Assembly (NCBI GenBank): GCA_012960465.1
Contig: DUBF01000123.1
Coordinates: forward strand, 1 to 62,653
DNA: 62,653 nucleotides
From: Rhodospirillales bacterium
GTDB taxonomy: Bacteria; Pseudomonadota; Alphaproteobacteria; Rhodospirillales; UBA2165
Reading direction: 5' to 3'
In this document: piece by piece, positions 25,377 through 36,599 of the stretch
Numbering within the stretch: the first letter of the stretch is position 1
Layout: every line of letters begins with the position of its first letter
Notes under the pieces: model-generated
Databases searched by the model: none
What the model was told of the DNA's origin: nothing
What the model saw: the letters and a program-made list of their open reading frames with translations, nothing else
Translations under genes and position numbers: made by a program

Positions 25377-27185
25377 ATGATTGTTTTAGGACTTAAATGC
25401 TTTAGTCATGATACGGGCGCTGCCATACTTTCGGATCACGAGGGCAAATTAAAAGTTGTTGCGATTTCTGAAGCGCGGCTTAACCGGCGGAAACATTCAT
25501 TTGCCTACCCACTAATGTCAATAGCCTATTGCCTTGCCAGTCTGGGTCTAGATAGTTTAGATGACGTAGACTTGATTTGTATAGATCGCCATATGGAAAT
25601 ATGGCCGGATAGAAACTCCCAATTTGGTTACCAAAATGCCCTTAAGCGCTACCAACCACGTTACGACGATAACCATCGATGGAATTACCTCATCGAACAA
25701 AGTATTAAATTTGACCAATCAAAATGCCGTCTGATTAATCATATAGACGCTCATGCCGCAAGCGCGTACTTTGCCTCTCCATTCAATGATGCCGCAGTCC
25801 TTATTGCCGAGGGCGGAACAGGTATTTATCACGGACAAGGTTCCAACCTAAAAATTATCGATAGAATAGGCTATTTAGGCGCGACCCTCCAAAACGGTAA
25901 AAAGCTTGCTGAACGGCGCGACCATTTTGTTAATTCATCTTTCTTTTATGATAAAATATCAGCTCATTTAGGCTATGATATATTTGGCGCAGGTCAAACA
26001 ATGGCTCTCGCTGGCTTTGCTCACCAATTTCCATACGAGCCTCTAATTAACATTGATCCACATCGATACGATGATTTTATAATTAACCACAACAAAACAG
26101 TTTTCAGTATGAAAGATATACCAACCTTTAAAAGTCAACATAGTGAAAAACTAATTTCAAATCCTTGGATCAGCCTCGCTTATCAAGCACAGAAAACTTT
26201 AGAAGACGACATTCTTTATCTTGCCAGGCTAGCACAAAAAAAAACAGGGGCTAAGAAAATTTGCCTCGCTGGTGGCGCTGCACTTAACTGTATTATCAAC
26301 AAAAAACTAATTGAAAGCGGCGTATTTGATGAGATTTTTGTCCAACCAGCAGCCTCGGACGAGGGTATAGCCCTTGGGTGCGCATTGTCTGGATATTATT
26401 CGAATGGAGGATACGTTAGGCACCACATGTCCGATGCTTATTTGGGGCAAAAAAATGAACCAAGGACATTATCAGTAGTGATAGAAAAATGGAAATTAAA
26501 AGCTACTAAAACGTCTACCCAAGAAATCGCGCGTTTATTGGCAGACGGAAAAATTATAGGTCGCGTTGCGGATAGATCAGAGTATGGTCCACGAGCGCTA
26601 GGCAATCGCAGTATTCTTGCAGATCCCAGGCGATCTAACATGAAAGACCGTCTTAACACTAAAATTAAACACCGCGAGAGTTTTCGCCCTTTTGCACCGT
26701 CTTGCCTTGAAGATAAAATACCTGACTACTTTAATTCACCGGCCAAAAGTCCATTCATGGTTATTGCGGGAACCGTAAATGAAAATAGTCGCAATAAAGT
26801 TCCTGCTGTCACTCATACCGATGGTTCCTGTCGAGTTCAGACTGTAAACCGAGAACAAAACAGTGACTACTATGATTTAATCGAGGCCTTTGGGGATATA
26901 ACTGGCTGCCCAGTATTAACCAACACATCTTTTAATGATCGGGCCGAACCAATAGTTGAAACCTATGAAGATGCAGCTAATTGTTTTTTGCGAACAGGCT
27001 TAGACGCACTATACTGCGATGGAATTCTGGTCCAACGCACAGAAAAAACACCAACATTAACATCAGAACAAAATCTTCAAAATACAATTGCTCGCGTTAA
27101 CAGCGAATACACAAACATTATTGATCGATTTTGCAATGTATCAGCTTATGTGAGTTTAGCTAATGAGTTAAACAAAAACGAATAA
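25377..27185 (+). CDS. Carbamoyltransferase, NodU/TobZ family
   Basis: The 602-residue protein has the N-terminal ASKHA-like YrdC-related domain starting LGLKCFSHDTGAAIL, the metal/ATP motif CLAGGAALN, and the C-terminal domain motifs EYGPRALGNRSILADPR and NTSFNDRAEP. The family transfers a carbamoyl group from carbamoyl phosphate, through carbamoyl-adenylate, to a hydroxyl on a sugar or natural product. Near TPR glycosyltransferase genes the acceptor may be a surface glycan or glycosylated protein (inference). The C-terminal ~40 residues beyond the core look unspecific. Confidence 0.92.
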   Translation: MIVLGLKCFSHDTGAAILSDHEGKLKVVAISEARLNRRKHSFAYPLMSIAYCLASLGLDSLDDVDLICIDRHMEIWPDRNSQFGYQNALKRYQPRYDDNHRWNYLIEQSIKFDQSKCRLINHIDAHAASAYFASPFNDAAVLIAEGGTGIYHGQGSNLKIIDRIGYLGATLQNGKKLAERRDHFVNSSFFYDKISAHLGYDIFGAGQTMALAGFAHQFPYEPLINIDPHRYDDFIINHNKTVFSMKDIPTFKSQHSEKLISNPWISLAYQAQKTLEDDILYLARLAQKKTGAKKICLAGGAALNCIINKKLIESGVFDEIFVQPAASDEGIALGCALSGYYSNGGYVRHHMSDAYLGQKNEPRTLSVVIEKWKLKATKTSTQEIARLLADGKIIGRVADRSEYGPRALGNRSILADPRRSNMKDRLNTKIKHRESFRPFAPSCLEDKIPDYFNSPAKSPFMVIAGTVNENSRNKVPAVTHTDGSCRVQTVNREQNSDYYDLIEAFGDITGCPVLTNTSFNDRAEPIVETYEDAANCFLRTGLDALYCDGILVQRTEKTPTLTSEQNLQNTIARVNSEYTNIIDRFCNVSAYVSLANELNKNE

Positions 27186-27338
27186 TACTCTGTCCTAAAC
27201 ATTCTGTATTTATTTTCTAACAGAAAATCTTTCTACTACAACGGATAATGATTCAGTCCCGAGACTAAATTAAATATTTAAATTTTTTATATCACTCCGT
27301 TTTGATCACTAGCCTACGCATTTACATCTAAATCTACA

Positions 27339-29207
27339 TCATTGCTCAAACATTACTTTTTCAAAAAACTTTGCATGATGATCTATCGCGGTTCTGTTAT
27401 CAAAAATATTTCTATGTCCTTCTTTTATTTTTTCCTTAACCATTTTAGAGAAAGTAATATCCAGACATAGACGTTTTGTGATTTCAATATAATCTTCTGG
27501 GTTTTTTGACACACACTCCATCACATTCATTTGTTTATAAATACCGAAACTAACACGACTACGCATAAATTTTCCAGGCAGAGTAACAACAGGCGTACCA
27601 GCAGCCAGTGATTCAAAAGTAGTCATGCCACCAGAAAAATGGGGCGTGTCGAGAATTACGTCTGCCGTGCGCATAAGATCAGCGATCTCTTTTTTATTCT
27701 GGCGAGGCAGTATTTCTATACGATCACTCACATCGTATGTTTGTTTCAGCATACGAGTTTTTAACAAGTCACTCCAAGCAGGATGGCTGCCATCGATGAT
27801 TTGAATACTGGCATCCGGCAGGGCACGTAAAATTTTACCTAAGATTTTATCAAAATCAGGGTGGTATTTAAACAAGGATTGCGGACAAAATATTCGCTGT
27901 CCATCCGAACGCTCATGTTTTAAGATATTCTGGAATTCGTTTGGCTTGGTAACACACGATGGGAGAGAATTTAACTTTAATAGCTTTTCACTATACGACT
28001 CTTGGGCATTTTCAGGTTCTATTAAATGACTAGATACAAAATAGTCGATATTAGGTAACCCCGTAGTTACAGGATGCCCCCAAGTTACGCATTGAACCGG
28101 AGCCAATCGGGCAAAGCCCAAAAAATAAGTCAGTGGCTCCATGCCAATATCTGTAAAATACAAGATATCCAATTCAGCCTCAGCAATCCTCTGCCGTGCT
28201 TCATCAATACGTTTTGGTAAGGATATAAATTTTAGGCCCCCTGTTTTAAAACCTTGCGAGTGTGAATCTTCAACCTCAGAAAAAGAAAATATAAACACCT
28301 CAAAGCGCGCTTTTGGGAGTCCATTGATTAAACTCTTATTCAACAAAGATATTGTGTGGGTATGAAAAAATGAGGACACAAAACCTATCCGCGGAATACC
28401 ACCTTCTAGACCCGCCATCCAACTGCGAACATGTGGGGCCTCGAATGATAAAAAAGGGCAGACCTTTAAATACATTTCAGAAATTTTCAACTGAATTTCC
28501 TTATCATCAAGTCCATGATAAGGAAGTAAGAAATTCGTCGCTCCAACCTCGTTAATTGGATCTTCAACGATTAAATCCTCACTCATTAGATTATCTAATT
28601 TAGATATAAGTTGGTTGCGGCATTCAAGTATTTGCTCTTTAGAATCGACAATTACGGGTAGAACTAAGGCCTCCCGAATACGAAGCCCAATATCTGCCCG
28701 CAAATATATAGCCTTATTATACGTACTTTTAGCAGCTGTGTGATCGCCTGTTGTTTCATAGAGATCTGCTAAATTCTTATAAGCCGCAATATAGTTAGGA
28801 TCTATTTTAATCGCTTGTCTATAGCAAGATAGGGCTCCCTCAAAATCCTTATTATTCTTTCTTATATTGCCAAGGTTATTATATGCCGTAGTCATATCTG
28901 GGTTAATACTAATAGCCACCTGATAATTATTCTCAGCAAAAATAAACTCGCCAAGATCACCATAGACCAACGCGAGATTATAATAAAAATCTGAATTATC
29001 TGGCACACGATCTATGGCTATTTTTAAGAGATCACGCGCAATTTCAAAATTACCCAATTCTCGATTAATGACGCCTGAATTTGCAAAAACCTCTGCTGAC
29101 GCGCCACCGGCTTCTATCACCCGAGCAAGTAAATCATTCGCTAACTCGATATTACCAGATGCAAAAGCAACGAGCCCTTCTTGATATAAATTTTTTACAT
29201 CATCCAT
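27339..29207 (-). CDS. TPR protein with SPINDLY/OGT-like glycosyltransferase domain (GT41)
   Basis: The 622-residue protein has about five or six TPR repeats in residues 1-180, for example AYNNLGNIRKNNKDFEGALS. The C-terminal half resembles O-GlcNAc transferase/SPINDLY: IGFVSSFFHTHTIS, VQCVTWGHPVTTGLPNIDY, and TPHFSGGMTTFESLAAGTPVVTLPG for the nucleotide-sugar site. Such bacterial proteins glycosylate proteins, often flagellins or surface proteins, though the sugar is not known here. It overlaps the upstream TPR gene by 8 bp, so they form a coupled pair. Confidence 0.9.
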   Translation of the reverse strand: MDDVKNLYQEGLVAFASGNIELANDLLARVIEAGGASAEVFANSGVINRELGNFEIARDLLKIAIDRVPDNSDFYYNLALVYGDLGEFIFAENNYQVAISINPDMTTAYNNLGNIRKNNKDFEGALSCYRQAIKIDPNYIAAYKNLADLYETTGDHTAAKSTYNKAIYLRADIGLRIREALVLPVIVDSKEQILECRNQLISKLDNLMSEDLIVEDPINEVGATNFLLPYHGLDDKEIQLKISEMYLKVCPFLSFEAPHVRSWMAGLEGGIPRIGFVSSFFHTHTISLLNKSLINGLPKARFEVFIFSFSEVEDSHSQGFKTGGLKFISLPKRIDEARQRIAEAELDILYFTDIGMEPLTYFLGFARLAPVQCVTWGHPVTTGLPNIDYFVSSHLIEPENAQESYSEKLLKLNSLPSCVTKPNEFQNILKHERSDGQRIFCPQSLFKYHPDFDKILGKILRALPDASIQIIDGSHPAWSDLLKTRMLKQTYDVSDRIEILPRQNKKEIADLMRTADVILDTPHFSGGMTTFESLAAGTPVVTLPGKFMRSRVSFGIYKQMNVMECVSKNPEDYIEITKRLCLDITFSKMVKEKIKEGHRNIFDNRTAIDHHAKFFEKVMFEQ

Positions 29208-30819
29208 AATCTTGTTTTAAATCTATTTCTAATTGCAGGAAAGCCCGCGCCCAGCTTGCATTAACATCTTGACGATAAAGTGTAAAATCAGGAAACCATG
29301 GCGAGGTATCTCCATAAACTTGCCACCGGAATTCTCCTGGATGCGTGACTAAAACTCTCGCAGTTCTGCCAGTCGCTGCGCGTAAATGCATATTAGTATT
29401 ACTAACCCCAATATAGTCATCCAATACTGCCATTAAAGCTAACGCATCTTCAAGCCTCACATTGACATCGGAAAAATCGTAAATCTCCCGTCCTAGAAGC
29501 GAAGAAATCTGCATTAACTCACTAGGCTTGGAATGTCGTTGCACACTAATAACGGTGGCAGAAATTTTGCTGAGTACTGAGCCGATATTTTTGGGCGGAG
29601 CATTTTTAAATAAAGTATTAGCACCCGCACCCCCTGCCCTGTAGGTAATACCGATATAAGGAGCGGGCCCACAATCGGTCAATCTAGCCAGCATATTAAG
29701 CCTTATTTTTTCCTTTGGTTTTATGGTAACACTAGGAACAACAGTACTATTTCCCAATAGATAGGGAAGGTCAGCGATAGAAAAATCAGGTTCTTTAAGG
29801 TCTTCAACTATTATTCCATCAACCCGCTCAAATAAACTTTTGGCCTTAGAATCTGGTTGAAATTTAACAGTAGCCCCACGGTTTTTTAATTCAGGCAGAA
29901 AACGAGAAAAAAATATTTGATCACCCAGCCCCTGCTCTGCCGCAACGTGAATTGTTCGCCCGGATAGATTAGGAGAAAGACGTTCATTTGGTAATAAAAA
30001 ACTTTGGCGATCGACCGTATGACGATAGCGATAATTTTTCCAGCCCTCACTCAGTTCAGCCATTGCTAATTGAAGAAATCCCAAGTTCCATTTATTTACA
30101 AAAAAATCAGGCGCAACTTCTGCTCCCCTTTTAAACTCAGAGCATGCTTCCGAATACTTACCTTGCTGGCGAAGACATAAGCCTAGACTACAATATAGCT
30201 CAGGTGTATTAGGTGAATTCACAATGCCCTGCCGATAAAATTTCTCAGCCGCTTTATGTTCTCCTAAATCATCTAACACAGTACCTAAATTATTTATCGC
30301 TTGTACATAATCCGGTTTAGCTTTAAGGGCGAGTTGATAATGTTCGCGTGCTTCTGGTAAACGATTAACTTCTCCCAATAACACCCCTAAATTATAATGA
30401 GCCTCGGCATAATTGGAATGACGTGAAATTGCAGCTAAAAAAGCTGTTTCAGCTCGCTCTGTTTTTCCTTCTTGCATATACAATACACCCAAGTGATTAA
30501 GTGGGTCTGCAAACTTAACTTGCAATTCTGAGGCTCTTTCAAAGGCTAGTTTTGCTTCGTCTAAAGAACCCATCAGTTTATAGGCTTGAGCTAAATTATT
30601 TTGAAGATACCCGTCTTCTGGAAGGTCAATTGCCGCTTTCTGTAAATAAATAACAGCTTCAGCTACCCGATTAGTTTGAAAAGCCACTACGCCTAGAAGT
30701 TGCTGGGCTTCAGCATTGTTCTCACTGTCCGGCGTAGCCCTCAGAAGTCTTTCAGCTTCGGCAAATTTAGCTTTTCTAATTAGATCTCTGGCTTTTTCAA
30801 TATCTTCTAGCGAATTCAT
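29200..30819 (-). CDS. TPR protein with a C-terminal GT9-like glycosyltransferase domain
   Basis: The 539-residue protein has eight or so TPR repeats in residues 1-250, including AEAHYNLGVLLGEVNRLPEA and YVQAINNLGTVLDDLGEHKA. The C-terminal region has HVAAEQGLGDQIFFSRFLPEL, IGITYRAGG and a late LMAVLDDYIGVSNTNMHLRAATGR. This is the layout of glycosyltransferase family 9-like domains fused to TPRs. The enzyme activity is inferred only. It is the first gene of the pair with the GT41-type protein and is divergent from the CbiX-like gene. Confidence 0.85.
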   Translation of the reverse strand: MNSLEDIEKARDLIRKAKFAEAERLLRATPDSENNAEAQQLLGVVAFQTNRVAEAVIYLQKAAIDLPEDGYLQNNLAQAYKLMGSLDEAKLAFERASELQVKFADPLNHLGVLYMQEGKTERAETAFLAAISRHSNYAEAHYNLGVLLGEVNRLPEAREHYQLALKAKPDYVQAINNLGTVLDDLGEHKAAEKFYRQGIVNSPNTPELYCSLGLCLRQQGKYSEACSEFKRGAEVAPDFFVNKWNLGFLQLAMAELSEGWKNYRYRHTVDRQSFLLPNERLSPNLSGRTIHVAAEQGLGDQIFFSRFLPELKNRGATVKFQPDSKAKSLFERVDGIIVEDLKEPDFSIADLPYLLGNSTVVPSVTIKPKEKIRLNMLARLTDCGPAPYIGITYRAGGAGANTLFKNAPPKNIGSVLSKISATVISVQRHSKPSELMQISSLLGREIYDFSDVNVRLEDALALMAVLDDYIGVSNTNMHLRAATGRTARVLVTHPGEFRWQVYGDTSPWFPDFTLYRQDVNASWARAFLQLEIDLKQDYG

Positions 30820-30903: not shown

Positions 30904-30993
30904 ATGAACAAGATTAATAATATAAAACCCCAAGCAAAATCTCTTAAGTTTTCTGAGATTAGTAAAAAATTAGTTCGAGGTACAATAAAATGA
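30904..30993 (+). CDS. Possible 29-residue leader ORF overlapping the CbiX-like gene
   Basis: ATG at 30904 opens a 29-codon frame encoding MNKINNIKPQAKSLKFSEI and nine further residues. Its TGA (30991-30993) overlaps the next gene's ATG (ATGA). The peptide is Lys-rich with no recognised domain. The start has only a weak SD. The overlap suggests translational coupling, but the ORF could be chance. Confidence 0.25.
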   Translation: MNKINNIKPQAKSLKFSEISKKLVRGTIK

Positions 30994-31796
30994 CCGTGTT
31001 TGAGAAAAATATTGCCAATTCGGAATTACTAATAGTTGGTCATGGTCGCTCGGGATCACAAGAAAGTACCATTCTAATTAAGGGTCATGCCAAAGGAATC
31101 AAGAATCGGAATCTATTCAAAGAAGTTCGATGTGGTTTCTTAAAACTAAGGCCATTTTTTACTGAACAGCTATTAGCTACTAAAAGTGAATCAGTATATG
31201 TTGTACCATGTTTTGCCGGTCCTGGTGGTCTTACAAATTCTACCATACCAGAAGAATTAGGACTTTCAGGTTCAGTAACTAAGAAAAGAAACCAAGTAAT
31301 TTATTACAGCAAACCCGTGGGCAATCATGCAAAAATTATAAATCGTATGTGTGAGTTAGTCCAGAATACAATGCTAATTTCAAAATTACCCAAAAAAGAT
31401 ACTACTATAATAGTTATTGGACACGGCTCAATCCATAATCGGCAATCCGAGACTAACACACGGGCCGTCGCAAAACAGATAAATCATTTAAAGCTCTCAA
31501 ACAAAGTTATTGTAATGTTTTTAGATCAAGCGCCAAACCTTGCCGACTGGAACGCCCATTGTAAAACGACCAATGCTATAGTTCTAAGCTACCTTTTCTC
31601 TGGTGGTAGCCATGAGACTATAGATTTACCCAAACTCATGGGATTTGAACCTACTAACGCCAAAGAGCGCTTTATTAATAACCAGCCGATAGGGCCAATT
31701 TGTGCAAATGGCAAACAATTATGGTTGTGTCCTTTAATAAGTGCAGACCAAATCATTCAGGAGGTTATTTTAGAGCGTGTTATAGAAATGAACTAG
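30990..31796 (+). CDS. CbiX/SirB-like chelatase-fold protein with two halves
   Basis: The 268-residue protein has two copies of the chelatase-fold start: LLIVGHGRSG (His18) and IIVIGHGSIHNRQSETNTRA (His145). The second half also has the paired His208 in FSGGSHETIDLP, the usual place of the second metal-binding His in CbiX. The equivalent spot in the first half (GPGGLTNSTIP) lacks it. The family inserts cobalt, iron or nickel into sirohydrochlorin-like tetrapyrroles. No cobalamin or siroheme gene is nearby, so the true substrate is uncertain. It converges with the long coiled-coil gene 17 bp away. Confidence 0.75.
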   Translation: MTVFEKNIANSELLIVGHGRSGSQESTILIKGHAKGIKNRNLFKEVRCGFLKLRPFFTEQLLATKSESVYVVPCFAGPGGLTNSTIPEELGLSGSVTKKRNQVIYYSKPVGNHAKIINRMCELVQNTMLISKLPKKDTTIIVIGHGSIHNRQSETNTRAVAKQINHLKLSNKVIVMFLDQAPNLADWNAHCKTTNAIVLSYLFSGGSHETIDLPKLMGFEPTNAKERFINNQPIGPICANGKQLWLCPLISADQIIQEVILERVIEMN

Positions 31797-31812: not shown

Positions 31813-34800
31813 TTATTCCGTGCCCAATGCTGTTCCACCAAACTCTCTCGCTAATGCCGATTGTAAGATCATATAGACCTTGCCTGCATCTGAAGTCATA
31901 AAACTCGCACCCAATACACCCTCTTGACCGCTGCGCCGCGCACTTTCTATTAACTCATCGAATTGGGCCAAATAGCGAGTGACATAGTTACGGAAATTAG
32001 AATCGCCCCGATATAATTGATTGATTTTTGCGAGCCTAGCCTTATTCCGCATACCCAATATTTTACGCAAGAAAATACTATTATCACCTCGGCTATAACG
32101 CTTCCAGTCATCCTCTGTAATTCGGGTTTCCATAATTCTATTAATATCTATAGCAATGGACGCCAGCCCTTCAGACACTAGAGCCATCCGGCTTAAAAAA
32201 TCCTCATGGCCAGATTTCGTTACCAATTCTTTAAGAGCATCCGTAATTTCCACAGCTTGCTTTGACGTATGAGATAAATCCTCAGTCTGACGAGCAACGG
32301 TACTAGCAACGTCTTTGGCATCATTAGCAAGCTTACCCGAAGCCGCCGTCAACTCATCCGTACCTTTCTTGATTGATTGTCCCCAAACTTCCATATTATC
32401 AACAGCACGGTTTGAAGCTACACTCGCTTCATCAGCTCGACGAGTAACCGTCTCTCCAACCATATTGATTCCGTTTAGCGCTTCGTTAAAAGTCTTGGTT
32501 AGGTCTTCAAGTTGCTTGCGAAGACCGGCCCCAGCACCGCCCATATTCTGTGATAGTTTGTAAGATGCATCACTAACATCCTTGGTCTGTTTATTGAGCG
32601 CATCGCTAATCGTTTTTAGTTTTTCCAGATTATTATCCGCCGCAGTACCCGTTGCATGTGCTGTTTCCTTCATAGCGTCATGAGCTGACCTTGTTGCATC
32701 TGTCGCGAGGCGAGCCGTTTCTGCCATTTGATTAGCCCGCACATCCATCATATCCGCAGCACCACCAAGTTTTGCGATTGCCCTATCTGAAGAAAGCGTA
32801 AGATCATCTAGGCGTTGACGAACAGCATTACTGGTATCTTCGAGACGATCAACACTTTGCTCAGACAACTTCGATAATTCCTCTGCACCACTTTTTAGAA
32901 ACTCATTGACACCGGCGGTTTTCTCAACGGCTCTATCGGATACAGAATGGATTTCATCTGAATGTCGTTGCAATCCAGAAGTTACAGCCGAGAGCAATTT
33001 TGCCGCCCTATCTACTGCAAGAGCAACTTCGCGAGACCGTTCTTGGAGCGCGCCTCCAACTGCATCAACTTTCGCAGAGGCTTCATCGGAGACCCCTGAG
33101 ATCTGTGAACTTCTCTCTTGCAATGTATCTGCAAAAGCCTGCACATGTGCATTTGACTCAATTGCAGACTGCGCAAACTCTTCAGCTCTTTGACGAAAAT
33201 TCGCCCCCAAACGATTTAGACGTTCCTCTGTATCTTCGGAATTACCTTTAATCTCTCCAAAGTTACTATTTAAATCTTCGGCAATATTAGTTAAACGCTT
33301 AGCTGCCTCATCTGCAGCCGTCGCAGCTTCACGAGATTGACGTAATAAGGTATCGCCAACAGAGCCAACATCAGAAACCGCATTTTCAGAAGCGGAAGCT
33401 AATTCACGAGAACGATCATGGAGGGCAGCTGCTGCGTCACTTACCTGACCAATTAAATCACTGGATAAGACGCGCATTTTGTCAGCCCTATCTTCAAAGG
33501 TCTCCCAGGTTTCATCCATTCGCATTACAGCATCATCCGTAATATCTGTTAACTCACGAGAACGTTGATGCAATTTCTCACCAACATTCTCAATTTGATC
33601 GGCAGCATTATCTGTTGTTCGGCTAAGATCTCGGGATTGCTGCCGTAACGCATCTGTTACCAAACCTATTAAACGCGCTGCTTTATCCGCCGATCCAGTA
33701 ACTTCTGCTGAGCGATACGCCATTGTTTCCCCTGCGGTATCAATATCGGAAACCGCCTTGTCCGACGAAGCTGTGAGGTCAGTTGAATTTTGCCTGAGGA
33801 TTTCAGCAACATTCTTTACTTTTTCAGTCGCATCAGTTGCAGCATTAGACAATTCCGCCGTGCGACGACCTAGAACAAATCCAATAGAACGCAAACGGTC
33901 TGTTGTTTTTGTAGACAACTCTCCTACAATCTCTCCTCCGTCGCGAAGTGCTTCTCCAACTTCACCAACTTTATCAACAGCCACAGCAGACGCGTCGTTT
34001 AACTGTCGCGTTTGATCCATTATTCTATCGCTGATTTCTGCAATATTTACGCTAGCATCGTCAGATACCGAGGAAATTTCTCTAATTTTATCCTCAACTT
34101 TCTCGGTAAGTTTTTGCAGATTGGTTGTCGCAGAATCTGATTCGGCAGCAAGCGTAGATAGACGATTGCTAAATTCATTATTAACACCACTGACATTGTC
34201 AGCAACTTGAAGTAATTCTTGGAGATCGCGCCGCAGTGCGGCTGCCACTTTATCGACGTTACCAACACTATTATCTGAAACATCTTTAAGTTCCAAACGA
34301 GCTTGGTTTAGACGTTCAGCTGTCGCATCTATATTAACGTTAGCTTCTTTTGAAGCCTCTGATAATTCAGTTGCTCGTTTTTGAAACGCGTCAGAAGTAT
34401 TGCCCATACGTAAGGTGACTAAATCATTCAATTTCACAATGTGATCTGACTTTTTCTGAAGCTCATCACTCACCTCAGCAATATCCATGACGGCTTTTTC
34501 CGAACTCGAAGAGATCTCCTCACTTTTAATGCTGAGCGTCGCCGCTACTTCATCTATCTTTATAGAAGTATCTTCGATTGTTTCTTTAAGAGCGGTTCTG
34601 ACGTCTTCAATTTGAGACGACACAACACTAGTTCTGATGGAAGCTTGGTCAGTTGTTTCTCCAAGCATATCTATGTGCTGGCGATATTTATCTGTAACCT
34701 CATCTAAACGATCTGCCGCGGCACCACTTGCTGCAAGCAATTCTTTTGTATCCTCTTTAACTTCTTCACCGGCCTGTTTGACTTGCGACATTATAGTATC

Positions 34801-36024
34801 TGTTCTCGCCCCTAGATTTCGTGTCTCAGTGCTAATCGCAGAGACGATTGTTGATGTCTTTGCGGTCGCGTTTTCTATAGCATCTGTGAGACTCTCTGCT
34901 TGATTTGTGAGTTGAGCCGCTACTTGATCAGATTGAATAACCATTTGGTCAGATCGAAGCTTTAACTCTTGGGTAAAATCTCGCAAATTCTCGGTCGTCG
35001 ATGCAACCCGTTGAGATGCCAACTCGGTTGCACCTGAGAGTGCTTCTGTATTACTTGAGAGATCATTATTCATTTGTTGGGCACGAGCTGTTGCTTCTGC
35101 AGATATTGACGCCATATGTTCCGAACGATTTTTATAAACCTCTGCTGTATCATGGGCTTTCTTAGAAGATTCCTCAGCGACCCTCATCAATTCTTCACCA
35201 CTTTTTTGTAAGGCACCTGTGATGTCTTCAGTTCGAGCCGCCGCTTTCTGAGATACGTTAATTAGATCAAGGCTTTGGTGATGCAATACATTCCCTGCTT
35301 CTCGAGCCCGAGCAATAGCTTGATCAGAGGCATTCACAAGGTCTTCGGCTTGCTGCCGAAGTTTATTACCAGCGCTATCTGCTTTTGTGGATGCCTCTTC
35401 AGATGCCACTGAAAGTGCAGATGTTTGTCTTTTAATCAAATCAGTCGCATTACTCGCACGTAAGCCCAAATCCTGAGATGCATAAGTCAACGCCACCGTT
35501 TGAGCGCGTAGAGATTGAGTAATCTCTGTCACTCGGCTTTCGGCATTATCCGAAGGATACGTAAGCTGCTGCAAATGCCATCGTAATGCCTTTGATTCTA
35601 TCTGATAGATCCGTGTTTTTTCAAAAAAGGCGACAACAATCCACATTAACGCAATTGGTGTCACGATACCCGCTGCTACCCCCCCCAACTCATGAGGCAG
35701 TAATTGAAAAATATCTACCATTGTTGAGTCTTTAAATAAAAAATTTAACGAAATCACAAGCCAGAAAATAGTTATGGCAATAGCCGCCACTGTAAGTAAA
35801 CGATAGCGTGCATAAAACGGCGGCTCGAACTCTGGCGCTTCCAAGTTATCGAAAGAATTTAGCCCGTTTTGCTCTGACCAATCCGAATTCTCTGAAACAT
35901 CAGAAATTTCCGCTTCTACAGGATCGTAGTTGTTACTATCTGCGTCGTGAACAACTTCTATCGTTTTATTTTCCATACTCTCTTTCTTTTGCTTATCTGT
36001 TCTATCAGGTGCATTATTCACCAT
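31813..36024 (-). CDS. Giant membrane-anchored coiled-coil protein with 45 repeats of 25 residues
   Basis: The 1403-residue protein has an acidic N-terminal tail (1-70) and two membrane segments (about 76-97 and 113-134). A helical region (147-1267) follows that divides without gaps into 45 units of 25 residues, except unit 19 with 21. A 136-residue C-terminal domain is not repetitive (DDWKRYSRGDNSIFLRKILG, VYMILQSALAREFGG). Unit positions 1, 5, 8, 12, 15, 19 and 22 are mainly hydrophobic or Ala. There are no enzymatic motifs, no prolines after the first unit and no cysteine in the array. If fully helical the rod would be about 170 nm long (0.15 nm per residue). The start is supported by GGGAG 7 nt upstream. 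Function unknown; a TipN-like polarity or envelope scaffold is a guess from topology. Confidence 0.9.
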   Translation of the reverse strand: MVNNAPDRTDKQKKESMENKTIEVVHDADSNNYDPVEAEISDVSENSDWSEQNGLNSFDNLEAPEFEPPFYARYRLLTVAAIAITIFWLVISLNFLFKDSTMVDIFQLLPHELGGVAAGIVTPIALMWIVVAFFEKTRIYQIESKALRWHLQQLTYPSDNAESRVTEITQSLRAQTVALTYASQDLGLRASNATDLIKRQTSALSVASEEASTKADSAGNKLRQQAEDLVNASDQAIARAREAGNVLHHQSLDLINVSQKAAARTEDITGALQKSGEELMRVAEESSKKAHDTAEVYKNRSEHMASISAEATARAQQMNNDLSSNTEALSGATELASQRVASTTENLRDFTQELKLRSDQMVIQSDQVAAQLTNQAESLTDAIENATAKTSTIVSAISTETRNLGARTDTIMSQVKQAGEEVKEDTKELLAASGAAADRLDEVTDKYRQHIDMLGETTDQASIRTSVVSSQIEDVRTALKETIEDTSIKIDEVAATLSIKSEEISSSSEKAVMDIAEVSDELQKKSDHIVKLNDLVTLRMGNTSDAFQKRATELSEASKEANVNIDATAERLNQARLELKDVSDNSVGNVDKVAAALRRDLQELLQVADNVSGVNNEFSNRLSTLAAESDSATTNLQKLTEKVEDKIREISSVSDDASVNIAEISDRIMDQTRQLNDASAVAVDKVGEVGEALRDGGEIVGELSTKTTDRLRSIGFVLGRRTAELSNAATDATEKVKNVAEILRQNSTDLTASSDKAVSDIDTAGETMAYRSAEVTGSADKAARLIGLVTDALRQQSRDLSRTTDNAADQIENVGEKLHQRSRELTDITDDAVMRMDETWETFEDRADKMRVLSSDLIGQVSDAAAALHDRSRELASASENAVSDVGSVGDTLLRQSREAATAADEAAKRLTNIAEDLNSNFGEIKGNSEDTEERLNRLGANFRQRAEEFAQSAIESNAHVQAFADTLQERSSQISGVSDEASAKVDAVGGALQERSREVALAVDRAAKLLSAVTSGLQRHSDEIHSVSDRAVEKTAGVNEFLKSGAEELSKLSEQSVDRLEDTSNAVRQRLDDLTLSSDRAIAKLGGAADMMDVRANQMAETARLATDATRSAHDAMKETAHATGTAADNNLEKLKTISDALNKQTKDVSDASYKLSQNMGGAGAGLRKQLEDLTKTFNEALNGINMVGETVTRRADEASVASNRAVDNMEVWGQSIKKGTDELTAASGKLANDAKDVASTVARQTEDLSHTSKQAVEITDALKELVTKSGHEDFLSRMALVSEGLASIAIDINRIMETRITEDDWKRYSRGDNSIFLRKILGMRNKARLAKINQLYRGDSNFRNYVTRYLAQFDELIESARRSGQEGVLGASFMTSDAGKVYMILQSALAREFGGTALGTE
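32224..35586 (-). repeat. 75-bp coding repeats (45 units of 25 codons) in the coiled-coil gene
   Basis: The translated units align in register over residues 147-1267: typical starts are LRQQSRDLSRTTDNAADQI, LHQRSRELTDITDDAVMRM and LQERSREVALAVDRAAKLL. The loose consensus is L at 1, R/Q at 4, S/T at 5, E/D at 7, L/I/V at 8, S/A at 12, D/E at 13, A at 15, V/L/I at 19 and V/I at 22. DNA copies are strongly diverged, so the array is old and held by selection on the protein. Confidence 0.9.
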
Positions 36025-36290
36025 ACTTTAGCTCCCAAATAGGTTCAAAAATCTTAGTGGCGCCCCGTTTTTAAACCGGAACGAATTCACTCTAACATAA
36101 TTTCGCAATTCTTCACAATTACCCTATTATAACCAATTGTATAAAAGTTTGTTGATAACGAGTACCCAAACTATGAATAGATAGTGCATAAAGTGTGTGT
36201 AAATAGGAGAAGCTATTTATAAAAACCACTTTGCATGTTGAAATAAGACAGGTACAAATTAATCGCGATATCAAAAAAAAGGATCTAAAG

Positions 36291-36599
36291 ATGAATGATC
36301 AAACAAGAGCAGAACTTGAGGCTGCAGCGTTTAGGGGGCTGGTAGCACACCTTCAAAAACGGACAGATGCGCAAAACATCGATATTATGAACTTGGCCGG
36401 TTTTTGCAGAAACTGTTTGTCCAAATGGTACTTGGCGGCGGCCAAGGAACGCAATATTAAACTTGACTTTGATGCTGCCCGGGAAGTTGTATACGGCATG
36501 CCATATGCAGAGTGGAAAGAAAAGTATCAACATGAGGCATCGAAAGAACAACAAGAAATTTATGAGAAAACAAAGCCGCTACACGCAAAAATAACTTGA
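36291..36599 (+). CDS. DUF1244 family protein
   Basis: The 102-residue protein matches the DUF1244 family, common in alpha- and gammaproteobacteria: AAAFRGLVAHLQKRTDAQNID, the conserved FCRNCLSKWY and VYGMPYAEWKEKYQ. The family is small, helical and of unknown function; the two cysteines in RNCLSKW are conserved. The start at 36291 follows AAAGGA at a good distance; the frame is open further upstream (to 36231) but that stretch is not family-like. It converges on the MFS transporter gene 2 bp away. Confidence 0.9.
   Translation: MNDQTRAELEAAAFRGLVAHLQKRTDAQNIDIMNLAGFCRNCLSKWYLAAAKERNIKLDFDAAREVVYGMPYAEWKEKYQHEASKEQQEIYEKTKPLHAKIT

Follow-up and report, generated by a model that had tools for sequence, protein, structure and literature searches.

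The subject of this analysis is a minus-strand gene on contig DUBF01000123.1 (assembly GCA_012960465.1) of a Rhodospirillales bacterium, studied over a stretch of 62,653 nucleotides that is referred to below as the window. The gene encodes a membrane-anchored rod protein of 1403 residues, in which a charged tail and a hydrophobic hairpin are followed by a long array of repeat units and a C-terminal helical domain (Table 1). The host genome comprises 3.74 Mb in 245 contigs and is 98.8% complete. A first-pass annotation, made from the DNA letters and their open reading frames, had divided residues 147–1267 into 45 consecutive units, and these coordinates (window 35586–32224, minus strand) proved exact. 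A register fit in which spacings of 14–36 residues were allowed returned the same 45 units, all 25 residues long except for one of 21 (residues 597–617).

The 25-residue period proposed at that stage was recovered both by autocorrelation and by Fourier analysis. Hydropathy autocorrelation over residues 147–1267 peaked at lags 25, 50, 75, 100, and 125 (r 0.44–0.50; shuffle maximum 0.16, n = 500), and the residue identity at lag 25 was 0.19, compared with 0.114 for the highest shuffled value. The Fourier peak of the rod was at 3.57 residues, which equals 25/7, and the local period stayed at 3.564–3.574 in seven 250-residue segments along it. At 25 residues per seven turns, helices are expected from established geometry to build a coiled coil with only a slight left-handed twist. 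Bulky hydrophobic residues occupy unit positions 1, 8, 19, and 22 in 100%, 93%, 69%, and 67% of the units, respectively, and position 15 is alanine in 64%. Thus, among the seven positions previously listed as hydrophobic or alanine, these five hold, while position 5 (Ser/Thr 53%, Ala 20%) and position 12 (Ser/Thr 71%) are mostly Ser/Thr/Ala. Tandem Repeats Finder reported no DNA repeat inside the rod gene. When the window protein is compared with seven homologues, same-index units show 26–73% identity, whereas the units within its own array share a mutual identity of only 18%. The array is therefore old and not under homogenisation.

Both ends of the rod were modelled as single chains; the middle of the rod lies outside these models and pairing is beyond their reach. 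The model of residues 56–350 (21 sequences; mean predicted local distance difference test score, pLDDT, 82.5; predicted template modelling score, pTM, 0.30) has helices at 76–99 and 110–155, a break at 156–158 and then one helix to residue 349. In the model of residues 1172–1403 (55 sequences; mean pLDDT 90.9, pTM 0.60), one helix at 1173–1297 is followed by shorter helices. The continuous helix anticipated by the first-pass annotation is borne out in the models of the two ends, and the N-terminal membrane anchor is backed by hydropathy and homology. The anticipated length of about 170 nm is also close to the arithmetic value of 1121 × 0.1485 nm = 166 nm, based on the standard rise per residue.

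Searches of Pfam and NCBIfam with the whole protein gave no assignment, only weak SMC, MCE, and Rad50 scores within the coiled coil. The long coiled coil is shared with SMC/Rad50 proteins, but no head domain was matched in the window protein and a membrane anchor is present instead. The scores lie far below the curated cut-offs (33.2 bits versus 567.35 for SMC_prok_B and 17.5 versus 729.4 for a second model), and membership was rejected. For the end domain, 14 members were compared with Pfam and none gave a match below E 0.05, and neither profile search nor fold search found a convincing solved relative. Foldseek with the C-terminal model gave no match at E ≤0.001 (best Z 7.0), an outcome that is usual for helical bundles and long helices, and for this domain a known fold is neither claimed nor excluded.

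Table 1 Features of the rod gene in the window.
Feature	Residues	Window coordinates	Strand	Description	Basis
Whole gene	1–1403	31813..36024	minus	RgsE/GPR-family membrane-anchored rod protein, 1403 aa	
N-terminal tail	1–75	35800..36024	minus	Charged; length variable among homologues	Sequence, homologues
Hydrophobic hairpin	76–137	35614..35799	minus	Membrane anchor	Hydropathy, homologue alignment, Rhizobiales profile match, model helices
Rod	147–1267	32224..35586	minus	45 units (44 × 25 + 1 × 21 residues)	Autocorrelation, register fit
Unit 19	597–617	34174..34236	minus	Sole 21-residue unit; place 18 or 19 in homologues	Register fit
Units 4–6	222–296	35137..35361	minus	Among the best conserved; mean identity 0.64–0.82, seven homologues	
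Units 26–35	768–1017	32974..33723	minus	Second conserved stretch; mean identity 0.49–0.80, seven homologues	
C-terminal helical domain	1272–1394	31843..32211	minus	Common to RgsE, absent from Pfam	

Relationship to RgsE and GPR

A tblastn search with 123 residues of the C-terminal domain matched six records, including a gene (E 4e-14) of Sinorhizobium meliloti, a root-nodule symbiont, that is annotated as 'kinesin' and has a product of 2089 residues. This gene is RgsE (SMc00190), and its product length equals that published for RgsE (PMC7327166). The remaining five records comprise three from Sinorhizobium, one from Shinella and one from Sphingomonas. In a single BLASTP comparison, the end domains of the window protein and a Sinorhizobium sojae protein were 32% identical over 111 aa without gaps (E 9e-24). 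Profile comparison matched the end domain to those of Sinorhizobium sojae and other Rhizobiaceae with a probability of 99.7%, and the N-terminal hairpin to the Rhizobiales hairpin with a probability of 97.2% (E 3.4e-11). Judged from these sequence matches, the window protein is almost certainly a homologue of RgsE. The first-pass annotation had not recognised a named family; the C-terminal domain and N-terminal hairpin show kinship with RgsE/GPR.

That a relationship to RgsE exists was known before: an earlier study noted distant homologues of RgsE in Rhodospirillales and Emcibacterales and raised a different role for them (PMC7327166). The same paper describes RgsE as a homologue of A. tumefaciens GPR with 42% identity. 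GPR is a membrane-anchored polar-growth scaffold, in the absence of which cells lose their rod shape, and removal of its last 221 residues gave the strongest complementation failure in A. tumefaciens (PMC8262873). TipN of Caulobacter crescentus (882 aa), a new-pole landmark, is called similar to GPR in one paper (PMC8546619) and analogous to it in another (PMC13170164).

The window protein has the end domain, the hairpin and the long periodic helical body (modelled as helix at its ends) of the wider RgsE/GPR family. With RgsE it shares a homologous hairpin and C-terminal domain and a very long, strongly periodic helical body between them. The two proteins differ in size (2089 residues in RgsE, 1403 in the window protein) and in the periodicity of that body: RgsE shows lags 11, 22, 33, and 44 and a period of 3.65, whereas the window protein shows lag 25 and a period of 3.57. 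RgsE, used as a control, scored 257.8 bits against PF01442 (cut-off 90), while in the window protein PF01442 went unmatched even at a threshold of E 1, and ApoLp-III gave a weak score (E 0.0095) far under the cut-off of that model. Compared by its published description, GPR (Atu1348, 2115 aa) is alike in having two N-terminal membrane helices, a long helical body and a C-terminus that is needed for function (PMC8262873), but it has apolipoprotein-type repeats, and the growth-pole ring has been shown in Agrobacterium only. The host genome encodes MreB (E 9e-149) and a PopZ-family protein (E 5.4e-23). The presence of MreB was judged by E-value. The class-wide tally, in which 289/289 genomes exceed the cut-off, carries no information, since the cut-off is also passed by weak matches (about 1e-8 to 1e-17) that were taken for Hsp70-type proteins. 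Lacking PF01442 repeats, being shorter and occurring in a cell with MreB, the window protein is not GPR/RgsE proper.

Distribution of the family and its repeat forms

In surveys whose genome counts all include the host, the whole-protein probe matched in 27 of the 31 nearest genomes, and end-domain profiles matched in 159 of 218 genomes of the same order and in 106 of 289 drawn over the class Alphaproteobacteria. Carriers of the rod protein within the order include Magnetospirillum sp. XM-1 and, with a rod of 45 units, Magnetospira sp. QH-2; the NCBI taxonomy places the two in Rhodospirillales. The end domain was found in 144 of 149 genomes of the family holding Bosea and Chelatococcus, in 190 of 199 over the order of that family, and in 149 of 151 genomes of the family holding Sinorhizobium sojae. 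The family with Bosea and Chelatococcus is not Rhizobiaceae, and the telomere resolvase PF16684, tried as a marker of Agrobacterium, was present in 1 of its 149 genomes. Among 160 genomes drawn over the phylum, all 36 matches fell inside Alphaproteobacteria; 119 genomes were counted as outside the class, including 104 unlisted misses that were taken as such because the listing runs from near to far kin. No genome outside Alphaproteobacteria in the samples searched carried the end domain.

The strongest lag before the end domain was 25, 50, or 75 in 24 of the 28 class-survey loci long enough to test (L022–L050 minus L026; the exceptions are L024, L043, L044, and L045), and the 25-residue rod is therefore the commoner form in the class sample. 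An 11/22-residue form was seen in three f84 proteins of one set and in ten full-length f84 proteins. Of six Rhizobiaceae proteins, three had this form too and the rest showed lags 18 and 29. Within the last 340–410 residues of four f84 proteins, the strongest lag was 25 in three and 18 in one. A clean split between the forms is blurred by 'Hyphomicrobiales bacterium UR115' (L070), which has the 25-residue form, and by a Sphingomonas protein with lag 18. Lengths of the Rhizobiales homologues also vary widely. PF01442 was weakly positive in 124 of the 289 class genomes and above the cut-off in none, and these weak matches were not used because 7 of 14 control genomes were positive too.

Rod length among homologues and gene neighbourhood

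Repeat units were counted in 64 Rhodospirillales homologues, a length-biased sample of 20 unusual and 20 typical open frames, 15 nearest-genome matches and 9 more. Exactly 45 units were found in 34 of the 64, spanning 13 of 23 families, and in 33 of these 34 a 21-residue unit stands at place 18 or 19; among all 64 homologues one stands at place 17–20 in 52. Even the most distant homologues tested, L016 and L017, have 45 units and carry the short one at place 18 or 19. The distance from the hairpin end to the end domain, which is independent of the register fit, was 1133–1137 residues in 27 and 1128–1148 in 36 of 63 homologues, L200 being left out because its frame has no hairpin. A less biased view is given by the open-frame lengths, 150 of which were listed: 64 at 1370–1445 aa, 44 at 930–1125, 20 above 1445, 8 at 1126–1369, and 14 shorter. 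The register assumed in the first-pass annotation is kept in homologues, where both the period and the single 21-residue unit recur; the copy number is kept in the 34 proteins with 45 units and departs from it in others, which have 28 to 77 units.

Some of the longer rods exceed the 45-unit length by whole blocks. Those of L189, L191, and L194 measure 1317, 1709, and 1905 residues, which equals 1121 + 196 × 1, 3, and 4, respectively, and every eighth unit in them is a 21-residue one, giving one per added block. Short units are spaced likewise in L198, with 68 units, and in L200, with 62 in a sequence whose N-terminus was not recovered. From one block to the next, protein identity was 0.35 in L189, 0.52–0.83 in L191 and L194, 0.58–0.70 in L200 and 0.22–0.44 in L198, and DNA identity was 0.40–0.86 (L200 not included). 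The window protein has no internal similarity of this block type. L195 has 53 units with one short unit at place 27. In the tree, L191 together with L194, and separately L195, sit among 45-unit relatives on starred branches, and other placements are weak; the group test compares labelled groups only and does not address independent expansions. At the other extreme, a 364-residue protein in family f37 (L068, genome G184) has a hairpin and a weak end-domain match (E 3e-8) with about 126 residues between them, and is perhaps a member almost without a rod.

The rod gene is flanked by a CbiX gene (30990–31796) and a DUF1244 gene (36231–36599), one on each side. Each of these lies beside or near the rod gene in four other regions, and a functional link is not evident. 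The gene neighbours are shared mainly within the genus and family of the host, and no envelope partner was seen among them. Elsewhere in the window (25377–30819), a carbamoyltransferase gene stands by a TPR gene and a TPR/Glyco_transf_41 gene, a grouping that is kept in three relatives and is perhaps a surface-modification set. Short tandem repeats with periods of 18, 21, and 36 occupy the window start (1–214).

Of the 25 loci scanned, 12 have a gene carrying a histidine-phosphotransfer motif next to the RgsE-type gene, on its upstream side (L062, L063, L064, L065, L067, L078, L085, L086, L090, L175, L178, and L278). Pfam assigned three of three such genes to Hpt, and an Hpt annotation is found next to the RgsE-type gene in S. 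meliloti and in Sphingomonas parapaucimobilis, the latter missed by the motif scan. Neither the window nor the 15 further regions other than Sinorhizobium yielded such a motif in the same scan. The adjacent Hpt gene may link the scaffold to a phosphorelay. The L278 record, CP090106.1, bears the title of S. meliloti plasmid pSymB. Its length of 3.72 Mb and its rpoC, fusA, and ribosomal protein genes point to a chromosome that was probably mislabelled.

Proposed role and biological meaning

We tentatively propose, with confidence somewhat short of even, that the protein is an RgsE/GPR-family inner-membrane scaffold at the pole or growth zone, with a rod that is nearly straight and has a fixed length of ~166 nm; its broader assignment as an envelope or pole scaffold is slightly favoured. 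Hydropathy and homology indicate that the two N-terminal helices would hold the protein in the inner membrane, with a topology assumed to be that of RgsE. Copies of the 45-unit helix would pair to form a coiled coil that is almost straight and ~166 nm long, and the conserved helical end domain may dock a partner or another copy. Units 4–6 and 26–35, as the most conserved stretches of the sequence, are the likeliest candidates for binding sites. The unit number and the 21-residue discontinuity are kept as the sequence diverges, and the contour distance from membrane to end domain is thus probably under selection. If this distance is what selection maintains, the hairpin-anchored rod would act as a fixed-length spacer that holds the end domain at a set distance. 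By homology with RgsE/GPR, the site would be the cell pole or growth zone, where the scaffold may organise envelope synthesis, MreB and PopZ being present in the same cell. The ruler or scaffold suggested by the first-pass annotation gains weight from the conserved unit number, which leaves the role itself a proposal.

Homology of both ends to RgsE, together with the PopZ family in the host genome, would also fit a full growth pole ring protein that supports unipolar growth with a polar ring as in Agrobacterium and Sinorhizobium. We regard this as improbable for a protein that lacks PF01442 repeats and has 1403 residues, compared with 2089–2115, and whose host encodes a clear MreB; Rgs and MreB homologues are reported to be mutually exclusive in Rhizobiales, and the suggestion of another role for the Rhodospirillales homologues comes from the same source (PMC7327166). 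A coiled coil is favoured over a lipid-binding face, because the bulky residues account for 23% of the rod and form a narrow stripe that keeps to within about 45 degrees of its centre. It is likewise improbable that the chain is instead an apolipoprotein-like amphipathic helix lying on the membrane and binding lipid, although GPR and RgsE score as apolipoproteins and lipid roles have been proposed for GPR (PMC8262873): neither PF01442 nor ApoLp-III recognises the window protein at its cut-off, and the rod period differs from that of RgsE.

Selection on rod length is likely. The constant length could also be functionless, the units having become too diverged to recombine and their number being frozen by history, as the low identity within the array and the lack of a DNA repeat in the gene would allow. 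This explanation is rather unlikely, since unit gains and losses do occur in the order, since 45 units recur across families that include deep branches of the tree (L016, L232, L233, and L017) with the 21-residue unit in place, and since the part of the 45-unit proteins before the hairpin end ranges from 112 to 289 residues. A more far-reaching proposal is a quantised ruler, in which a rod of 45 units (1121 residues, ~166 nm) with one register break at unit 18 or 19 is held across much of the order and is extended in some lineages by 196-residue blocks (7 × 25 + 1 × 21, ~29 nm), giving set membrane-to-end-domain distances, and RgsE/GPR is a derived form whose 25-residue rod was rewritten as variable-length 11/22-residue repeats; we consider it doubtful as a whole.

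Several points weigh against a scaffold with a rod of fixed length. The 64 homologues were partly picked by length. The same-index unit was the best match for only 11 of 45 units in L016 and 5 of 45 in L017, which makes the match of single units weak between proteins this far apart. Irregular arrays of 46–54 units occur in families f1, f6, f7, f10, and f235, and many of these contain spacings of 22, 29, 30, or 33 residues. Counts below 45 are found as well, with 40 units in one f235 protein and 28–37 in a separate group that includes Magnetospirillum. The end domain was not detected in 59 of the 218 genomes of the order, some of them complete, and the gene therefore appears dispensable in some lineages. 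GPR lacking its last 332 residues kept more function than GPR lacking 221, and showed paired foci (PMC8262873). The Rhizobiales growth mode cannot be assumed because the host genome has MreB, and the single-chain models are silent on pairing.

The rod is thus a variant of a known scaffold family and not an unknown family; the repeat observation of the first-pass annotation is confirmed and its interpretation is partly supported. New here are the conserved count of 45 units with a single 21-residue unit and the longer rods that exceed it by multiples of 196 residues. A literature search found no report of a conserved unit number or of 196-residue blocks in open-licence papers, most subscription papers being outside that search. 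It likewise found none on a 25-residue repeat with a coiled coil in bacteria, and the papers returned for 'molecular ruler', coiled coil and alphaproteobacteria were on other subjects.

In the prevailing view, RgsE/GPR is a Rhizobiales polar-growth factor of the apolipoprotein type. The end domain, which is absent from Pfam, ties RgsE/GPR to a family that extends across the Alphaproteobacteria sampled. In this family the 25-residue coiled-coil rod is the commoner form outside Rhizobiales, and many of the cells also have MreB. These observations suggest that the rod scaffold predates its use in polar growth, and the conserved rod length makes distance measurement by this family a testable question.

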